Shown here: positions 7,238 to 11,715 of the stretch, in pieces
How the letters are laid out: each line of letters opens with the position of its first letter
Position numbering within the stretch: the first letter of the stretch is position 1
DNA from: Desulfobulbaceae bacterium
GTDB taxonomy: Bacteria > Desulfobacterota > Desulfobulbia > Desulfobulbales > Desulfocapsaceae
Reading direction: 5' to 3'
NCBI GenBank assembly: GCA_011391225.1
Contig: JAABQY010000006.1
Coordinates: forward strand, 1-35,895
DNA: 35,895 bases
The notes under the pieces: generated by a model
Database searches by the model: none
What the model saw: only the letters and a program-made list of their open reading frames with translations
What the model was told of the DNA's origin: nothing
Made by a program: the position numbers and the translations under genes

Positions 7238-8914
7238 TTACAGTCGGTTTAAACTACTCAGTACGGCTTTAATAGAAGCAATAATGATATCAGTATCAAC
7301 TCCCGCCCCCCAACTTACTTTGCCATCAGGGCTTTCGAGCTCAATGTATGCAGCCGCCTTGGCACTTGACCCACCATTTAAAGCATGTTCGTCATAACTG
7401 CTCAACTTGAATTCTCCGGTTACACCCGTTTTCATTGCAGCACAAAACGCATCGAGAGGTCCGTTGCCGGAAGCTGCTACGGTCACCTCTTGCCCATTCA
7501 CCAAGAGTGTGGCCTCAACGGCCGCATGTGATGCTTCATCATTGGCACTGACATGGCGTTTAACAACATTGAATGCCTTAAGTTCGTAGGGAGTTCTAAC
7601 AGTAAGATACTCTTTTTCAAAGGTTTTATATATCTCGCTGTGGAGCAGTGCTCGCCCTTCTCGGTCGGTAACACCTTGAATGATTTTACCGAACTCAGGG
7701 TGCATAGCTTTTGGCATGCGAAAGCCAAATTCTTTTTCCATCACGTAGGCAACCCCACCTTTTCCAGATTGGCTATTAATTCGAATAATTGATTCATAGG
7801 TGCGACCCACATCCGAAGGATCAATCGGCAAATATGGCACTTCCCACAAACCCGATCCAGCCGAGTCATAGGCATGCATTCCTTTATGTATTGCGTCCTG
7901 ATGGGAGCCGGAAAAGGCCGTGTAAACAAGTTCTCCGGCATAGGGGTGACGAGGATGCACGGGCAAATCACATACCCGCTCATACACCTCGACTAACCTA
8001 TTGATATCGTGGAGATTGAGTCCCGGATCGACCCCTTGGCAAAACATATTGAGGGCAAGTGTCACGATATCGACATTTCCGGTCCTTTCACCATTACCAA
8101 ACAAAGTACCTTCGACACGTTCACCACCGGCGAGAAGCGCTAACTCAGTTGCAGCAACCGCACAGCCTCTGTCATTGTGGGCATGGAGACTGATGATTGC
8201 TGATTGCCTTTCGGCCATATGGGAACAAAACCACTCAATTTGATCAGCATAAACGTTCGGAGAGGCCATTTCCACCGTTGCCGGAAGATTGATAATAATT
8301 TTGTTCTGTGGTGTGGGCTCGAGGATGTCCATGACCGCTTCACATATCTCTAGGGCAAATTCCAGCTCAGTGCCGGTGAAACTCTCAGGGGAATATTCAT
8401 AACGAAATACCGTCTCCGGGTACTTCAGTTCTTCATCCTTCAAAAGTTTTGCTCCCTCCACCGCAAGCATAACAATTTCTTTTCGGCCCATTTTAAAAAC
8501 CGTCTTCCGTTGCAAGGTCGAGGTGGAATTATACAAATGAATGATTGCCCTTTTAGCCCCGGCGACAGAGGCATAGGTCTTGGTAATCAAATGATCTCGC
8601 GCCTGGGTCAAAACTTGGATCCAGACGTTTTCAGGGATCAGTTTCTGGTCAATAAGAACCCTGGTAAAATCGTACTCTACCTGGGCGGCAGAAGGAAAAC
8701 CAACCTCAATCTCGGGGAATCCGAGATCGGTCAGGAGATGAAACATTTCCAGCTTTCTCTCAAGGCTCATCGGTTGAACCAATGCCTGATTGCCATCACG
8801 TAAATCAACACTGCACCAGGTGGGAGCTTTTACAAGAGTTTTGCTAGGCCATTGTCTATTCGTCAGATTAACCGGCGGATATGGCCGGTATTTTTGCACT
8901 AATTCAGGATTCAT
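7238..8914 (-). CDS. leuA: 2-isopropylmalate synthase (LeuA type 2)
   Basis: LeuA condenses acetyl-CoA with 2-oxoisovalerate in the first committed step of leucine synthesis. The 558-residue protein belongs to the longer LeuA2 form found in actinobacteria and yeast as well as in some proteobacteria. The TIM barrel carries DLRDGNQ (37-43), metal-binding HAHND (244-248) and GNGERTGN (273-280). The C-terminal portion, from about residue 430, is the leucine-sensing allosteric domain (VAASGNGPLDAF, GGSSAKAAAYIEL). The start is fixed by AAGGAG eight bases upstream of the ATG. Upstream lies a leader ORF plus terminator that together look like a transcription attenuator, so expression should respond to leucyl-tRNA charging as well as to feedback inhibition. 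It is divergent from ilvBN. Confidence 0.96.
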   Translation of the reverse strand: MNPELVQKYRPYPPVNLTNRQWPSKTLVKAPTWCSVDLRDGNQALVQPMSLERKLEMFHLLTDLGFPEIEVGFPSAAQVEYDFTRVLIDQKLIPENVWIQVLTQARDHLITKTYASVAGAKRAIIHLYNSTSTLQRKTVFKMGRKEIVMLAVEGAKLLKDEELKYPETVFRYEYSPESFTGTELEFALEICEAVMDILEPTPQNKIIINLPATVEMASPNVYADQIEWFCSHMAERQSAIISLHAHNDRGCAVAATELALLAGGERVEGTLFGNGERTGNVDIVTLALNMFCQGVDPGLNLHDINRLVEVYERVCDLPVHPRHPYAGELVYTAFSGSHQDAIHKGMHAYDSAGSGLWEVPYLPIDPSDVGRTYESIIRINSQSGKGGVAYVMEKEFGFRMPKAMHPEFGKIIQGVTDREGRALLHSEIYKTFEKEYLTVRTPYELKAFNVVKRHVSANDEASHAAVEATLLVNGQEVTVAASGNGPLDAFCAAMKTGVTGEFKLSSYDEHALNGGSSAKAAAYIELESPDGKVSWGAGVDTDIIIASIKAVLSSLNRL

Positions 8915-8944
8915 TTGTTCTCCTTGCTGAAAAAATCAATACTC

Positions 8945-8975
8945 AAAAAAAAAGCCACGGTTTTTCAACCGTGGC
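8945..8975 (-). terminator. leuA leader attenuator terminator
   Basis: On the minus strand a perfect 9-bp stem, GCCACGGTT with AACCGTGGC (plus-strand 8954-8975), closes a GAAA tetraloop and is followed by nine T residues (plus-strand A run 8945-8953). It lies between the leader ORF and leuA, about 30 bases before the leuA start codon. It therefore terminates leuA transcription unless disrupted. The 5' arm is complementary over eight bases to a segment of the leader ORF (9025-9032), which provides the competing antiterminator. Confidence 0.88.
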
Positions 8976-9006
8976 CTTGTTGGTAACAGAGTTTTTTTAC
9001 AGCAAA

Positions 9007-9096
9007 CTACAACCCCTCCATATCGGCCACGGGATTAACCGGCGGATAACCTAATAGGAACGTAAGCAGCGAGTTTGCGATGACCATGTTTTTCAT
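9007..9096 (-). CDS. Putative leu leader peptide (29 residues)
   Basis: This short ORF starts at ATG 9096 and stops at TAG 9007, between the leuA promoter candidate and the attenuator terminator. The peptide begins MKNMVIANSLLTFLLGY and has leucines at positions 10, 11, 14, 15 and 29. The leucine codons are CTG, CTT, CTA, TTA and TTG, including CTA and TTA, which are typically slow. Codons 21-24 contain CCGTGGCC, complementary to the 5' arm of the terminator. A ribosome stalled at codons 10-15 would leave this segment free to form an antiterminator. No strong Shine-Dalgarno is visible (CTCTAAAC precedes the ATG), which is the main weakness. This is inferred from architecture rather than homology. 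Confidence 0.68.
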   Translation of the reverse strand: MKNMVIANSLLTFLLGYPPVNPVADMEGL

Positions 9097-9127
9097 GTTT
9101 AGAGTAACGGGATAAAAATCTAGATGA

Positions 9128-9157
9128 AGCTTACACGTCTCGATCTGTTGTTGTCAA
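9128..9157 (-). promoter_or_regulatory. Candidate leuA promoter
   Basis: On the minus strand a perfect -35 box TTGACA (plus-strand 9152-9157) is followed after 18 bases by TAAGCT (9128-9133), a weak -10 box. Predicted transcription would begin near 9120, about 25 bases ahead of the leader ORF. Its position is right for driving an attenuated leader. Confidence 0.5.
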
Positions 9158-9316: not shown

Positions 9317-9345
9317 TTGACAGATGTGGTGTTCACATATATATT
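9317..9345 (+). promoter_or_regulatory. ilvBN promoter (sigma-70 type)
   Basis: TTGACA (9317-9322) and TATATT (9340-9345) are separated by exactly 17 bases, close to the sigma-70 consensus. Transcription should begin near 9352 and leave an untranslated leader of about 80 bases before ilvB. No terminator or leucine/valine-rich leader ORF was seen in that leader, unlike leuA. The rest of the 8915-9430 intergenic region (about 9158-9316) showed no further structure that I could identify. Confidence 0.72.
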
Positions 9346-9430
9346 TCTAGTTCGTCTAAAATATACAGGCTTTTCAAGATGTTCTTCAACTTGTCCCGAA
9401 CAGTTTCAACTTTTACAAGGGAATGGATTC

Positions 9431-11134
9431 ATGGGAAAAATTACTGGATCCCAGGCAGTTGTCAGGTGTCTTCAGGAAGAGGGCGTGAAAACAATATTCG
9501 GATATCCTGGAGGTGCCGTTCTTGACCTTTTTGATGCTTTGATGGATTCCGACATAACAAACGTTCTTGTCCGTCATGAACAGGGGGCTGTGCATGCCGC
9601 AGATGGCTTTGCCAGAGTCACCGGTGAAGTTGGTGTTGCTCTGCTGACCTCCGGGCCAGGTGCCACAAATGGTGTTACCGGTATTGCCACTGCCCACATG
9701 GATTCAATTCCTCTGGTTATTCTCACCGGGCAGGTGCCCCGCCCCTTGATCGGTAATGATGCCTTCCAGGAAGTTGATATTGTCGGCATAACCCGACCGT
9801 GCACCAAACACAACTACCTGGTGAGTAACGTCGATGATCTGGTTTCAACACTGCGAGAAGCGTTCCACATTGCCCGTACAGGCAGGCCCGGACCAGTCCT
9901 TGTCGACCTGCCAAAGGATTTGATCGCCACCAAACTCACTTACCCGGAAAAAACGCCGATCCATTTATCATGCTACCAGCCGACATTCAACCCCCATCCG
10001 GTGCAGATTGAGAAGGCTTGCCGACGCATTATGAGGGCAACAAGACCGGTTCTTTATGTTGGTGGTGGAGTCATTTTGTCGAACTCCAGCAAGGAACTCA
10101 CGGAACTCGCCGAAAAGCTCAGCATCCCGGTTACCATGACACTCATGGGTTTAGGCGCCTACCCCGGCAGCCAAAAACTGTGCATGGGAATGCTCGGAAT
10201 GCATGGTACCTATACCGCCAATATGGCCGTTGCCGAAAGTGATCTTCTCATTGCCGTCGGTGCTCGCTTTGATGACCGAGTCACCGGCAAACTTGCCGAT
10301 TTTGCTACAAATGCAGAGATAATTCATGTCGATATCGACCCCACCTCCATCAGTAAAAATGTGAGGGTTGATATTCCCATTGTCGCCGATTGCAAGAATG
10401 CTCTGACCGCCATGAACAAGTGGTTTGATGCTGAATCAAACTTCAAACAAACTGAGCAAGCTGGACGTTTGCAACCTTGGCTCGCCCTGATCAGCGAGTG
10501 GACCGCGAAACACCCCCTGGCCTATAAAGATAATAATGATAGTATTATCAAACCTCAATACGTAATTGAGATGCTGCACCAGCTTACCGGTGGCCAAGCG
10601 ATAATAACGACCGAGGTCGGCCAAAACCAAATGTGGGCGGCCCAGTTTCACAAATTCGATTACCCGCGTCACTTTGTAACCTCCGGAGGATTGGGCACCA
10701 TGGGATTCGGACTCCCTGCAGCAATAGGCGCCCAAATGGCTTTTCCCGATCGCACCGTCATTGATATTGCCGGAGATGGTTCAATTCAAATGAATATCCA
10801 GGAACTGGCCACCGCCAAACAATATAGCTGCCCGGTAAAAATTGCCATTCTTAATAACGGCTATCTAGGTATGGTGCGCCAATGGCAAGAACTGTTTTAT
10901 AACAAGCGATATGCCTCGACAATTATGGATGTTGTCCCTGATTTCGTCGATCTTGCCAAGGCCTATGGCGCTGTAGGTCTCAGAGCCACGACAAAAAGCG
11001 AGGTTGAACCGGTTATCCGGGAAGCACTGGCCACCAACAATATTGTTATCATGGATTTCAAAATTGAGCGAGAAGAAGGGGTGTACCCGATGGTTCCAGC
11101 CGGTAAAGCAACCACTGAAATGCTGCTTGTATAA
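9431..11134 (+). CDS. ilvB: Acetolactate synthase large (catalytic) subunit
   Basis: This enzyme condenses pyruvate with pyruvate or 2-oxobutyrate, the common first step of valine, leucine and isoleucine synthesis, using TPP, Mg and FAD. The 567-residue protein has the N-terminal PYR domain with catalytic glutamate E50 (VRHEQGAVHAADG), the central FAD-binding domain, and a C-terminal TPP domain with GDGSIQMNIQELATA and ILNNGYLGMVRQWQ. The start at 9431 is chosen because MGKITGSQAVVRCL matches family N-termini and AAGGGA lies upstream. The open frame reaches back to 9317, but that would start inside the promoter. ilvN follows after 95 bases. Confidence 0.96.
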   Translation: MGKITGSQAVVRCLQEEGVKTIFGYPGGAVLDLFDALMDSDITNVLVRHEQGAVHAADGFARVTGEVGVALLTSGPGATNGVTGIATAHMDSIPLVILTGQVPRPLIGNDAFQEVDIVGITRPCTKHNYLVSNVDDLVSTLREAFHIARTGRPGPVLVDLPKDLIATKLTYPEKTPIHLSCYQPTFNPHPVQIEKACRRIMRATRPVLYVGGGVILSNSSKELTELAEKLSIPVTMTLMGLGAYPGSQKLCMGMLGMHGTYTANMAVAESDLLIAVGARFDDRVTGKLADFATNAEIIHVDIDPTSISKNVRVDIPIVADCKNALTAMNKWFDAESNFKQTEQAGRLQPWLALISEWTAKHPLAYKDNNDSIIKPQYVIEMLHQLTGGQAIITTEVGQNQMWAAQFHKFDYPRHFVTSGGLGTMGFGLPAAIGAQMAFPDRTVIDIAGDGSIQMNIQELATAKQYSCPVKIAILNNGYLGMVRQWQELFYNKRYASTIMDVVPDFVDLAKAYGAVGLRATTKSEVEPVIREALATNNIVIMDFKIEREEGVYPMVPAGKATTEMLLV

Positions 11135-11229: not shown

Positions 11230-11715
11230 ATGAAACATACCATTTCTGTGCTTCTCCAGAATAAACCGGGAGTGCTTTCCCGAGTTACCGGGCTTTTTAG
11301 CGGTCGGGGCTTCAATATCGAGAGTCTCTGTGTTGCCGAAACCCTCGATCCAAATGTTTCTTGCCTCACAGTGGTTTCCCGGGGAGATGAAGCAATCATT
11401 GAACAGATCACCAAACAGCTCAATAAGCTCATTGATGTCATAAAAGTTACTGAAATCAATGACAAGGAATACGTTGAAAGGGAAATGATTCTGCTTCGTG
11501 TAAAGGCTGAAGCCGCAACCCGCGCAGAAGTCCTGCGCGTTGTTGACATTTTTCGAGGCAAAGTAGTTGATGTAAGTGCTAAAAGTTACGCGATAGAACT
11601 TACCGGTTCGGCGTCAAAAATACAGGCTGTGATTGACATTCTCAGGCCAATCGGTATCAAGGAAATTGTTCGAACAGGAATAATAGCCATGTCACGGGCG
11701 ACTAAAACCAAATAG
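11230..11715 (+). CDS. ilvN: Acetolactate synthase small (regulatory) subunit
   Basis: IlvN/IlvH-type regulatory subunit of 161 residues. An N-terminal ACT domain (residues 3-75: HTISVLLQNKPGVLSRVTGLF, GRGFNIESLCVAET) binds valine. A C-terminal ACT-like domain (about 80-158: EREMILLRVKA, GKVVDVSAKSYAIELTG, IKEIVRTGIIAMSR) completes the two-domain form that stimulates IlvB and confers feedback inhibition. It lies directly downstream of ilvB on the same strand and is followed 32 bases later by psd, so the operon probably continues. Confidence 0.95.
   Translation: MKHTISVLLQNKPGVLSRVTGLFSGRGFNIESLCVAETLDPNVSCLTVVSRGDEAIIEQITKQLNKLIDVIKVTEINDKEYVEREMILLRVKAEAATRAEVLRVVDIFRGKVVDVSAKSYAIELTGSASKIQAVIDILRPIGIKEIVRTGIIAMSRATKTK

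Follow-up and report, generated by a model that had tools for sequence, protein, structure and literature searches.

A ribosome-mediated leucine attenuator predicted upstream of leuA in Desulfobulbales

Mutations in the Salmonella leu attenuator are reported to show that its CUA codons set the sensitivity of the system, which is lost when CUA is changed to CUG (PMC1183508). The actinobacterial LEU element relies on a pseudoknot, with its Leu codons paired to the Shine-Dalgarno sequence of leuA, and it has no classical terminator-based scheme (PMC1262725). For the ilv-leu operon of Staphylococcus aureus, a leucine-rich leader peptide is reported to control branched-chain synthesis by transcription attenuation (PMC5794164). 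Here we analyze a leader upstream of leuA in a Desulfobulbales MAG, and we are highly confident that it is a ribosome-mediated transcription attenuator that couples leuA expression to charged leucyl-tRNA. The design of a leucine attenuator is classic; in this case it is conserved across two families of sulfur-cycling bacteria and is apparently uncatalogued. We found no description of the Desulfobulbales element in the open literature or in Rfam, and an earlier mention elsewhere, for example in comparative surveys of attenuation, is possible.

Layout of the leuA leader

The element lies on the minus strand of the window (the whole 35,895-nt stretch of DNA that was analyzed), upstream of a single leuA of the LeuA2 or "leuA_yeast" type (Table 1; all attenuator coordinates are window positions). 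A sequence-only reading had placed a promoter, a short ORF, a terminator and an antiterminator at 8945-9157, and when we re-read the sequence every one of these elements was found in its place, base for base. This includes the hairpin with its GAAA loop and nine Ts, the exact complementarity of CCGTGGCC to GGCCACGG, and the leucines at ORF codons 10, 11, 14 and 15 (CTG CTT CTA TTA). The proposed length of the leader peptide did not survive comparison. The ATG at 9096, which would give 29 residues, is missing from the nearest relatives, where L003 and L005 have CTG instead, and the second ATG, at 9087, is common to most relatives, so that the leader most likely has 26 codons. Counted from this conserved start, the leucines are codons 7, 8, 11 and 12.

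Table 1. Features of the leuA leader and its neighborhood, in window positions
Feature	Position	Strand	Basis or remark
-35 box TTGACA of the leader promoter	9152..9157	-	sequence
Probable -10 region TGTAAG, weak match	9130..9135	-	position conserved in relatives
29-codon ORF of the sequence-only reading, MKNMVIANSLLTFLLGYPPVNPVADMEGL then stop	9096-9007	-	sequence
Leader ORF from the conserved start, MVIANSLLTFLLGYPPVNPVADMEGL then stop, 26 codons	9007..9087	-	start codon position shared by most relatives
First control Leu pair CTG CTT	9064..9069	-	sequence; -60/-57 from the stop is Leu-rich in relatives
Second control Leu pair CTA TTA	9052..9057	-	-48/-45 from the stop codon; most conserved Leu positions
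Strand 2 (antiterminator) CCGTGGCC	9025..9032	-	-23..-16 from the stop codon
Purine-rich 3' end of ORF and stop, GGAGGGGTTGTAGTTTGC	9002..9019	-	pairs with Leu-codon strand 1, e.g. GCAAACT 9072-9078 (folds)
Intrinsic terminator hairpin, 12 bp, GAAA loop	8951..8978	-	sequence, fold
Strand 3 = terminator 5' arm, GGCCACGG	8969..8976	-	pairs with strand 2 as well
Terminator 3' arm CCGTGGC	8954-8960	-	sequence
U tract, nine T	8945..8953	-	first three overlap the hairpin foot
leuA Shine-Dalgarno AAGGAG	8920-8925	-	sequence
leuA ATG	8914	-	sequence
leuA, 2-isopropylmalate synthase, 558 aa	7238..8914	-	TIGR00970 (leuA_yeast) above cut-off
ilvB and ilvN, divergent from leuA	9317-11134 and 11230-11715	+	

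The TTGACA box of the leader promoter is exact upstream of 74 of the 77 leaders examined (for L003, the best-scoring match was taken, which is a second, closer TTGACA). When the relatives are aligned at this box, G-T-T-T-A-(T or C)-T is common at the same distance and marks the -10 region; a -10 consensus was also tried, and proved constant in position and poor in match. On the other strand, a strong sigma-70-like promoter (TTGACA-17-TATATT, 9317-9345) is directed at ilvB, so the intergenic stretch between leuA and ilvB probably carries both promoters. Terminator-like sites are more frequent than in shuffled sequences, with four observed against 0.7 +/- 0.9, and the one on the correct strand has 12 pairs.

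Conservation and coding signature of the leader

We collected the DNA upstream of leuA from relatives and searched it mechanically for short Leu-rich ORFs with a terminator downstream. Both were present in nearly every locus of sufficient length, and 74 leaders were kept for analysis; the named relatives all belong to the Desulfobulbales (BRH_c16a, Desulforhopalus, Desulfoprunum, Desulfofustis and Desulfocapsa). Since these loci are related, the counts that follow are not counts of independent events. A Leu-rich ORF of 22-29 codons, mostly 26, together with an intrinsic terminator is found in 74 of 74 leaders, with two to eight leucines within the richest ten residues. The leader ORF, its frame and its leucine codons, whose conservation the sequence-only reading had proposed to check upstream of related leuA genes, are thus all conserved, and this conservation puts a chance origin of the element out of question.

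The position of the antiterminator strand relative to the reading frame is equally informative. A CCGTGGC-like strand-2 motif lies inside the ORF in 71 of the 74 leaders, and its codon phase is identical in all 71: in 58 it begins exactly at -23 from the stop, and in the others it is shifted by whole codons. The distance from stop to terminator, by comparison, ranges from 20 to 38 with every phase seen. Leucine codons are most frequent at -48 and -45 from the stop, and between -54 and -49 the first and second codon positions of the relatives are mostly C and T while the third is free. CTA is enriched, making up 177 of 486 leader Leu codons (36%) versus 3.3% in the window genes and 1.6% in the leuA genes that served as reference (P-values for this comparison are indicative only, as the sequences are related), and at least one CTA occurs in 71 of 74 leaders.

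These patterns bear on whether the leader is translated at all. The terminator could be constitutive, or controlled by a protein or by Rho, within an untranslated leader, in which case the ORF would be incidental and the terminator would set a low level of leuA. It would fit this explanation that a Shine-Dalgarno sequence at the start of the 74 leaders scores no better than in shuffled sequence (leuA itself has a good one), so that translation of the leader may be inefficient. That strand 2 keeps one phase in all 71 leaders with a recognizable motif, while the spacing after the stop is free, argues against it, and the CTN periodicity and the enrichment of CTA at fixed positions need translation. 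We therefore regard an untranslated leader as highly improbable.

Alternative pairings and ribosome position

Pairing was assessed on an alignment of 58 leaders (A1). The terminator (3:4) is paired in 93.5% of cells, with 35 double-changed cells, and this signal is lost when the strands are slid against each other. The antiterminator (2:3) is paired in 86% in register versus at most 58% when slid by one to three columns. Column pair 42:117 is C-G, U-A or U-G in all 58 sequences and is never broken, and column pair 44:115 is U-G, C-G or U-A in 54 of 58. Compensatory changes in the two pairings had been suggested as a check, and both pairings are indeed kept through changes, with covariation in 2:3 limited to one column. 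As the double changes in 2:3 fall mainly in this column and mostly in one genus (g7), covariation taken alone is modest; a genus-level permutation of strand 3, used as a covariation test, did not reach significance, since strands 2 and 3 hardly vary. The stronger argument for 2:3 is the conservation of its sequence together with its phase and position. Antiterminator and terminator are mutually exclusive, as strand 3 is common to both, and both are conserved. The parts of the element, their frame and geometry, and both alternative pairings are read from the sequence and from comparison among relatives.

A site upstream of leuA with a terminator and alternative structures would also suit a leucine-binding riboswitch or a tRNA-binding T-box leader. 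Such a leader is exceedingly improbable here: no Rfam family matches at the gathering score, the matches at E<=10 include no T-box or amino-acid riboswitch, and there is no conserved aptamer-like core, as columns that belong neither to the Leu codons nor to strand 2, the purine strand or the terminator are free. It would, moreover, leave the Leu codons and the frame unexplained.

To relate ribosome position to folding, we masked a footprint reaching 14 nt upstream and 15 nt downstream of the P codon's first base, which assumes a ribosome of standard size, and moved it along each of the 74 leaders on a transcript ending just past strand 3. In this model the mean number of 2:3 base pairs is 8.2-8.7 while the A site is anywhere from -60 to -42, drops to 5.3 at -36, and is about 0 at -30 to -6. 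Without a ribosome the leaders average 5.1 pairs, and 71 of 74 gain pairs when the ribosome stalls at -48. The leader of the window has 3.7 pairs without a ribosome, 8.9 when stalled at CTA and 0.4 with the ribosome at the stop. Under the same model E. coli leuL, used as a positive control, rises from 0.0 pairs to 4.4-6.2 when the ribosome stalls at any of three CTA codons, and has 1.0 with the ribosome at the stop; its fourth CTA, at -48, gives 0.7. By this modeling, the Leu codons of the Desulfobulbales leaders are placed exactly where stalling favors the antiterminator. In some leaders (g5, L099) the model still makes 2:3 when the transcript is naked or the ribosome is at the stop, so regulation may be leaky there.

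We propose that attenuation proceeds as follows. Transcription would start about 30-40 nt upstream of the leader ORF, and a ribosome would trail RNA polymerase through the ORF. With ample leucine, it would pass the Leu codons, cover strand 2 (CCGUGGC) and finish at the stop; strand 1, which holds the Leu codons, would close on the 3' part of the ORF, leaving strand 3 free for strand 4, and the resulting 3:4 terminator would halt transcription ahead of leuA. Under a shortage of charged tRNA-Leu, in particular of the isoacceptor that reads CUA, the ribosome would stall on the Leu codons some 45-60 nt before the stop and block strand 1, whereupon 2:3 would pair, no terminator would form and leuA would be transcribed. 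Promoter activity, leader translation, termination and the response to leucine are all predicted from the sequence features, and the chain from stalling to read-through is one that we model and infer. The conserved ORF, its frame, its Leu codons and the two pairings together support the interpretation as ribosome-mediated attenuation that was first drawn from the window's letters.

A third pairing, 1:2, is an addition to that interpretation. In folds of the pre-terminator transcript, strand 2 of the 74 leaders pairs upstream with a mean probability of 0.60, and the Leu-codon strand commonly pairs with the purine-rich 3' end of the ORF; in several genera the predicted 1:2 pairing is CUAC:GUGG/GUAG beside strand 2. 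We found no single consensus register for this helix, because the Leu codons, rich in pyrimidines, can pair with the purine-rich 3' end in several, and we thus claim 1:2 as a tendency of the modeled folds. A run of Leu codons ahead of leuA, together with their pairing to a GGAG-rich strand, also brings to mind translational control as in the LEU element of Actinobacteria, where the partner of the Leu codons is the Shine-Dalgarno sequence of leuA (PMC1262725). Here the GGAG-rich strand is part of the leader ORF and does not lie at leuA, and a U-tract terminator intervenes in 74 of 74 leaders, which makes this form of control extremely unlikely.

The same region explains why the C-terminal half of the leader had seemed more constrained than a plain leader would need. 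The constraint is at the nucleotide level, where strand 2 and the purine-rich strand account for it; in the peptide, YPPVN is not conserved. Within PPVNPVADMEGL, the codons of PVAD hold strand 2, and the codons of MEGL plus the stop hold the purine strand; this segment is constrained as RNA. We also observed that TATCCGCCGGTTAATC (16 bases encoding YPPVN) is identical, and in the same frame, in the leader ORF (9033-9048) and at the start of leuA (8866-8881), both on the minus strand. This identity could suggest that the C-terminal half has a function of its own, for example that of a nascent YPPVN peptide acting with LeuA or the ribosome. We consider such a function very unlikely, as the longest run shared between leader and leuA start is 11 nt in the nearest relative (L003) and at most 10 nt in all others, the residues are not conserved, and RNA pairing explains the constrained part. 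Recent short gene conversion or coincidence is a possible source of the identity.

Distribution and comparison with known attenuators

We built a covariance model of the leader and ran it on the window's own genome and on 258 genomes of the class. In its own genome the model finds one copy, and the leuA copy is the only convincing one; 400 nt upstream of trpE of the same genome contained no comparable leader. In the 258 class genomes there are 136 full-length copies, mainly in two families (f1 and f12), and two genomes of another family (f5) that carry the element also have a leuA of the same type. Desulfoprunum benzoelyticum DSM 28570, a relative in culture, carries the element. Genes of this leuA type are rare in the phylum, with 13 genomes among 395 sampled. 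Copies lie within 600 nt upstream of leuA in 127 of the 136 cases. In at least four of the other nine, leuA is cut by the contig end: in three genomes (G030, G107 and G193) the leuA start adjoins the leader by tblastn, and in G005 leuA itself begins at the contig end. The median distance from the end of the terminator to the leuA start is 47 nt in the class survey. At one locus (L022, in G034) two large, MITE-like inverted repeats are inserted between the attenuator terminator and leuA. Outside the order, one genome (G559, locus L161) has TTGACA, a Leu-rich ORF and a terminator with GGCCACGG.

Several other leaders came to light in the course of this survey. In another family of the order, a model match (L154/L138; G226:C44:107332-107460, plus strand; E=1.8e-5) has the leader MNTLNLLTTKCALAIGLWSIWRCIAVAQGGFR, ending in a stop, in which strand 2 keeps its position and Trp codons stand at -45 and -36. 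It precedes two SAM-methyltransferase-like genes, not leuA, and may represent this attenuator design fitted with a different control codon. Leu-rich short ORFs that differ in sequence also precede more distant leuA2 genes in Opitutales and Clostridia. In two Opitutales MAGs (L040 and L041) the Leu-rich short ORF before leuA2 (for example MTSNRRTLLLPGLVLIPLL, then stop) is surrounded by a long pairing (CAGTAACCG...CGGTTACTG); no obvious U-tract terminator was seen upstream of leuA2, and this leader is possibly a translational attenuator. Two Clostridia MAGs (L042 and L046) have a short leader before leuA2 (MKYTSIETLNNLLLS, then stop) as well as a terminator (GCTGGGTCAC...GTGACTCAGC) that runs into seven T, which together look like an independent leucine attenuator. 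In Opitutia (L044 and L045), a short leader ending in CGACTTATCTAG before leuA2 has an adjacent GCACGAT...ATCGTGC inverted repeat, an arrangement reminiscent of the actinobacterial LEU element.

Our findings extend classical leucine attenuation to Desulfobulbales, in two families, and in a single instance to another family of the phylum; the comparative support is unusually firm. More than 100 natural variants with fixed phase and spacing form a data set for asking how an attenuator is jointly constrained by the ribosome footprint, the choice of rare codons and RNA pairing. Genome annotators, in turn, gain a model for a short gene and a regulatory RNA that would otherwise be missed.

Among described systems, the actinobacterial LEU element shares with ours a leader peptide with a run of Leu codons before leuA; the Desulfobulbales element differs from it in its U-tract terminator and intra-ORF antiterminator, and lacks the defining features of LEU elements. 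The S. aureus ilv-leu leader differs in phylum, operon and sequence, and is set beside ours by description only. Most similar is E. coli leuL. Its leader is of similar length (28 aa) and likewise uses rare CTA control codons, which, read directly, lie at -57 to -48 from the stop, a placement that resembles that of the Desulfobulbales leaders. Its strand 2 (GCGCGG) is within the ORF at -31 to -26, 3' of the control codons as in Desulfobulbales, and a CUAC strand pairing beside strand 2 is common to both. In both, a U-tract terminator lies about 20-30 nt past the stop (that of leuL begins 24 nt downstream of the stop's first base).

The two leaders nevertheless differ in sequence, with GGCCRCGG in the Desulfobulbales terminator versus CCCGCGC in leuL, and the Desulfobulbales leader, unlike leuL, has no Shine-Dalgarno sequence. 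The gene contexts differ as well: the Desulfobulbales element precedes one leuA of the LeuA2/leuA_yeast type, divergent from ilvBN, whereas leuL controls leuABCD. Matches to Rfam at E<=10 are at chance level and include no leu leader, and the leader peptide has no match in Pfam, so the element is not filed as a member of the enterobacterial leu leader families. It is conceivable, though we hold this view only tentatively and at slightly less than even weight, that the leaders of Desulfobulbales and the leuL of enterobacteria arose independently and converged on one layout, with CTA control codons some 45-57 nt ahead of the stop, strand 2 within the ORF and CUAC pairing next to strand 2. On that reading, the different types of leuA behind the leaders would suggest a layout that is dictated rather than inherited, set by the ribosome footprint and the timing of RNA polymerase.
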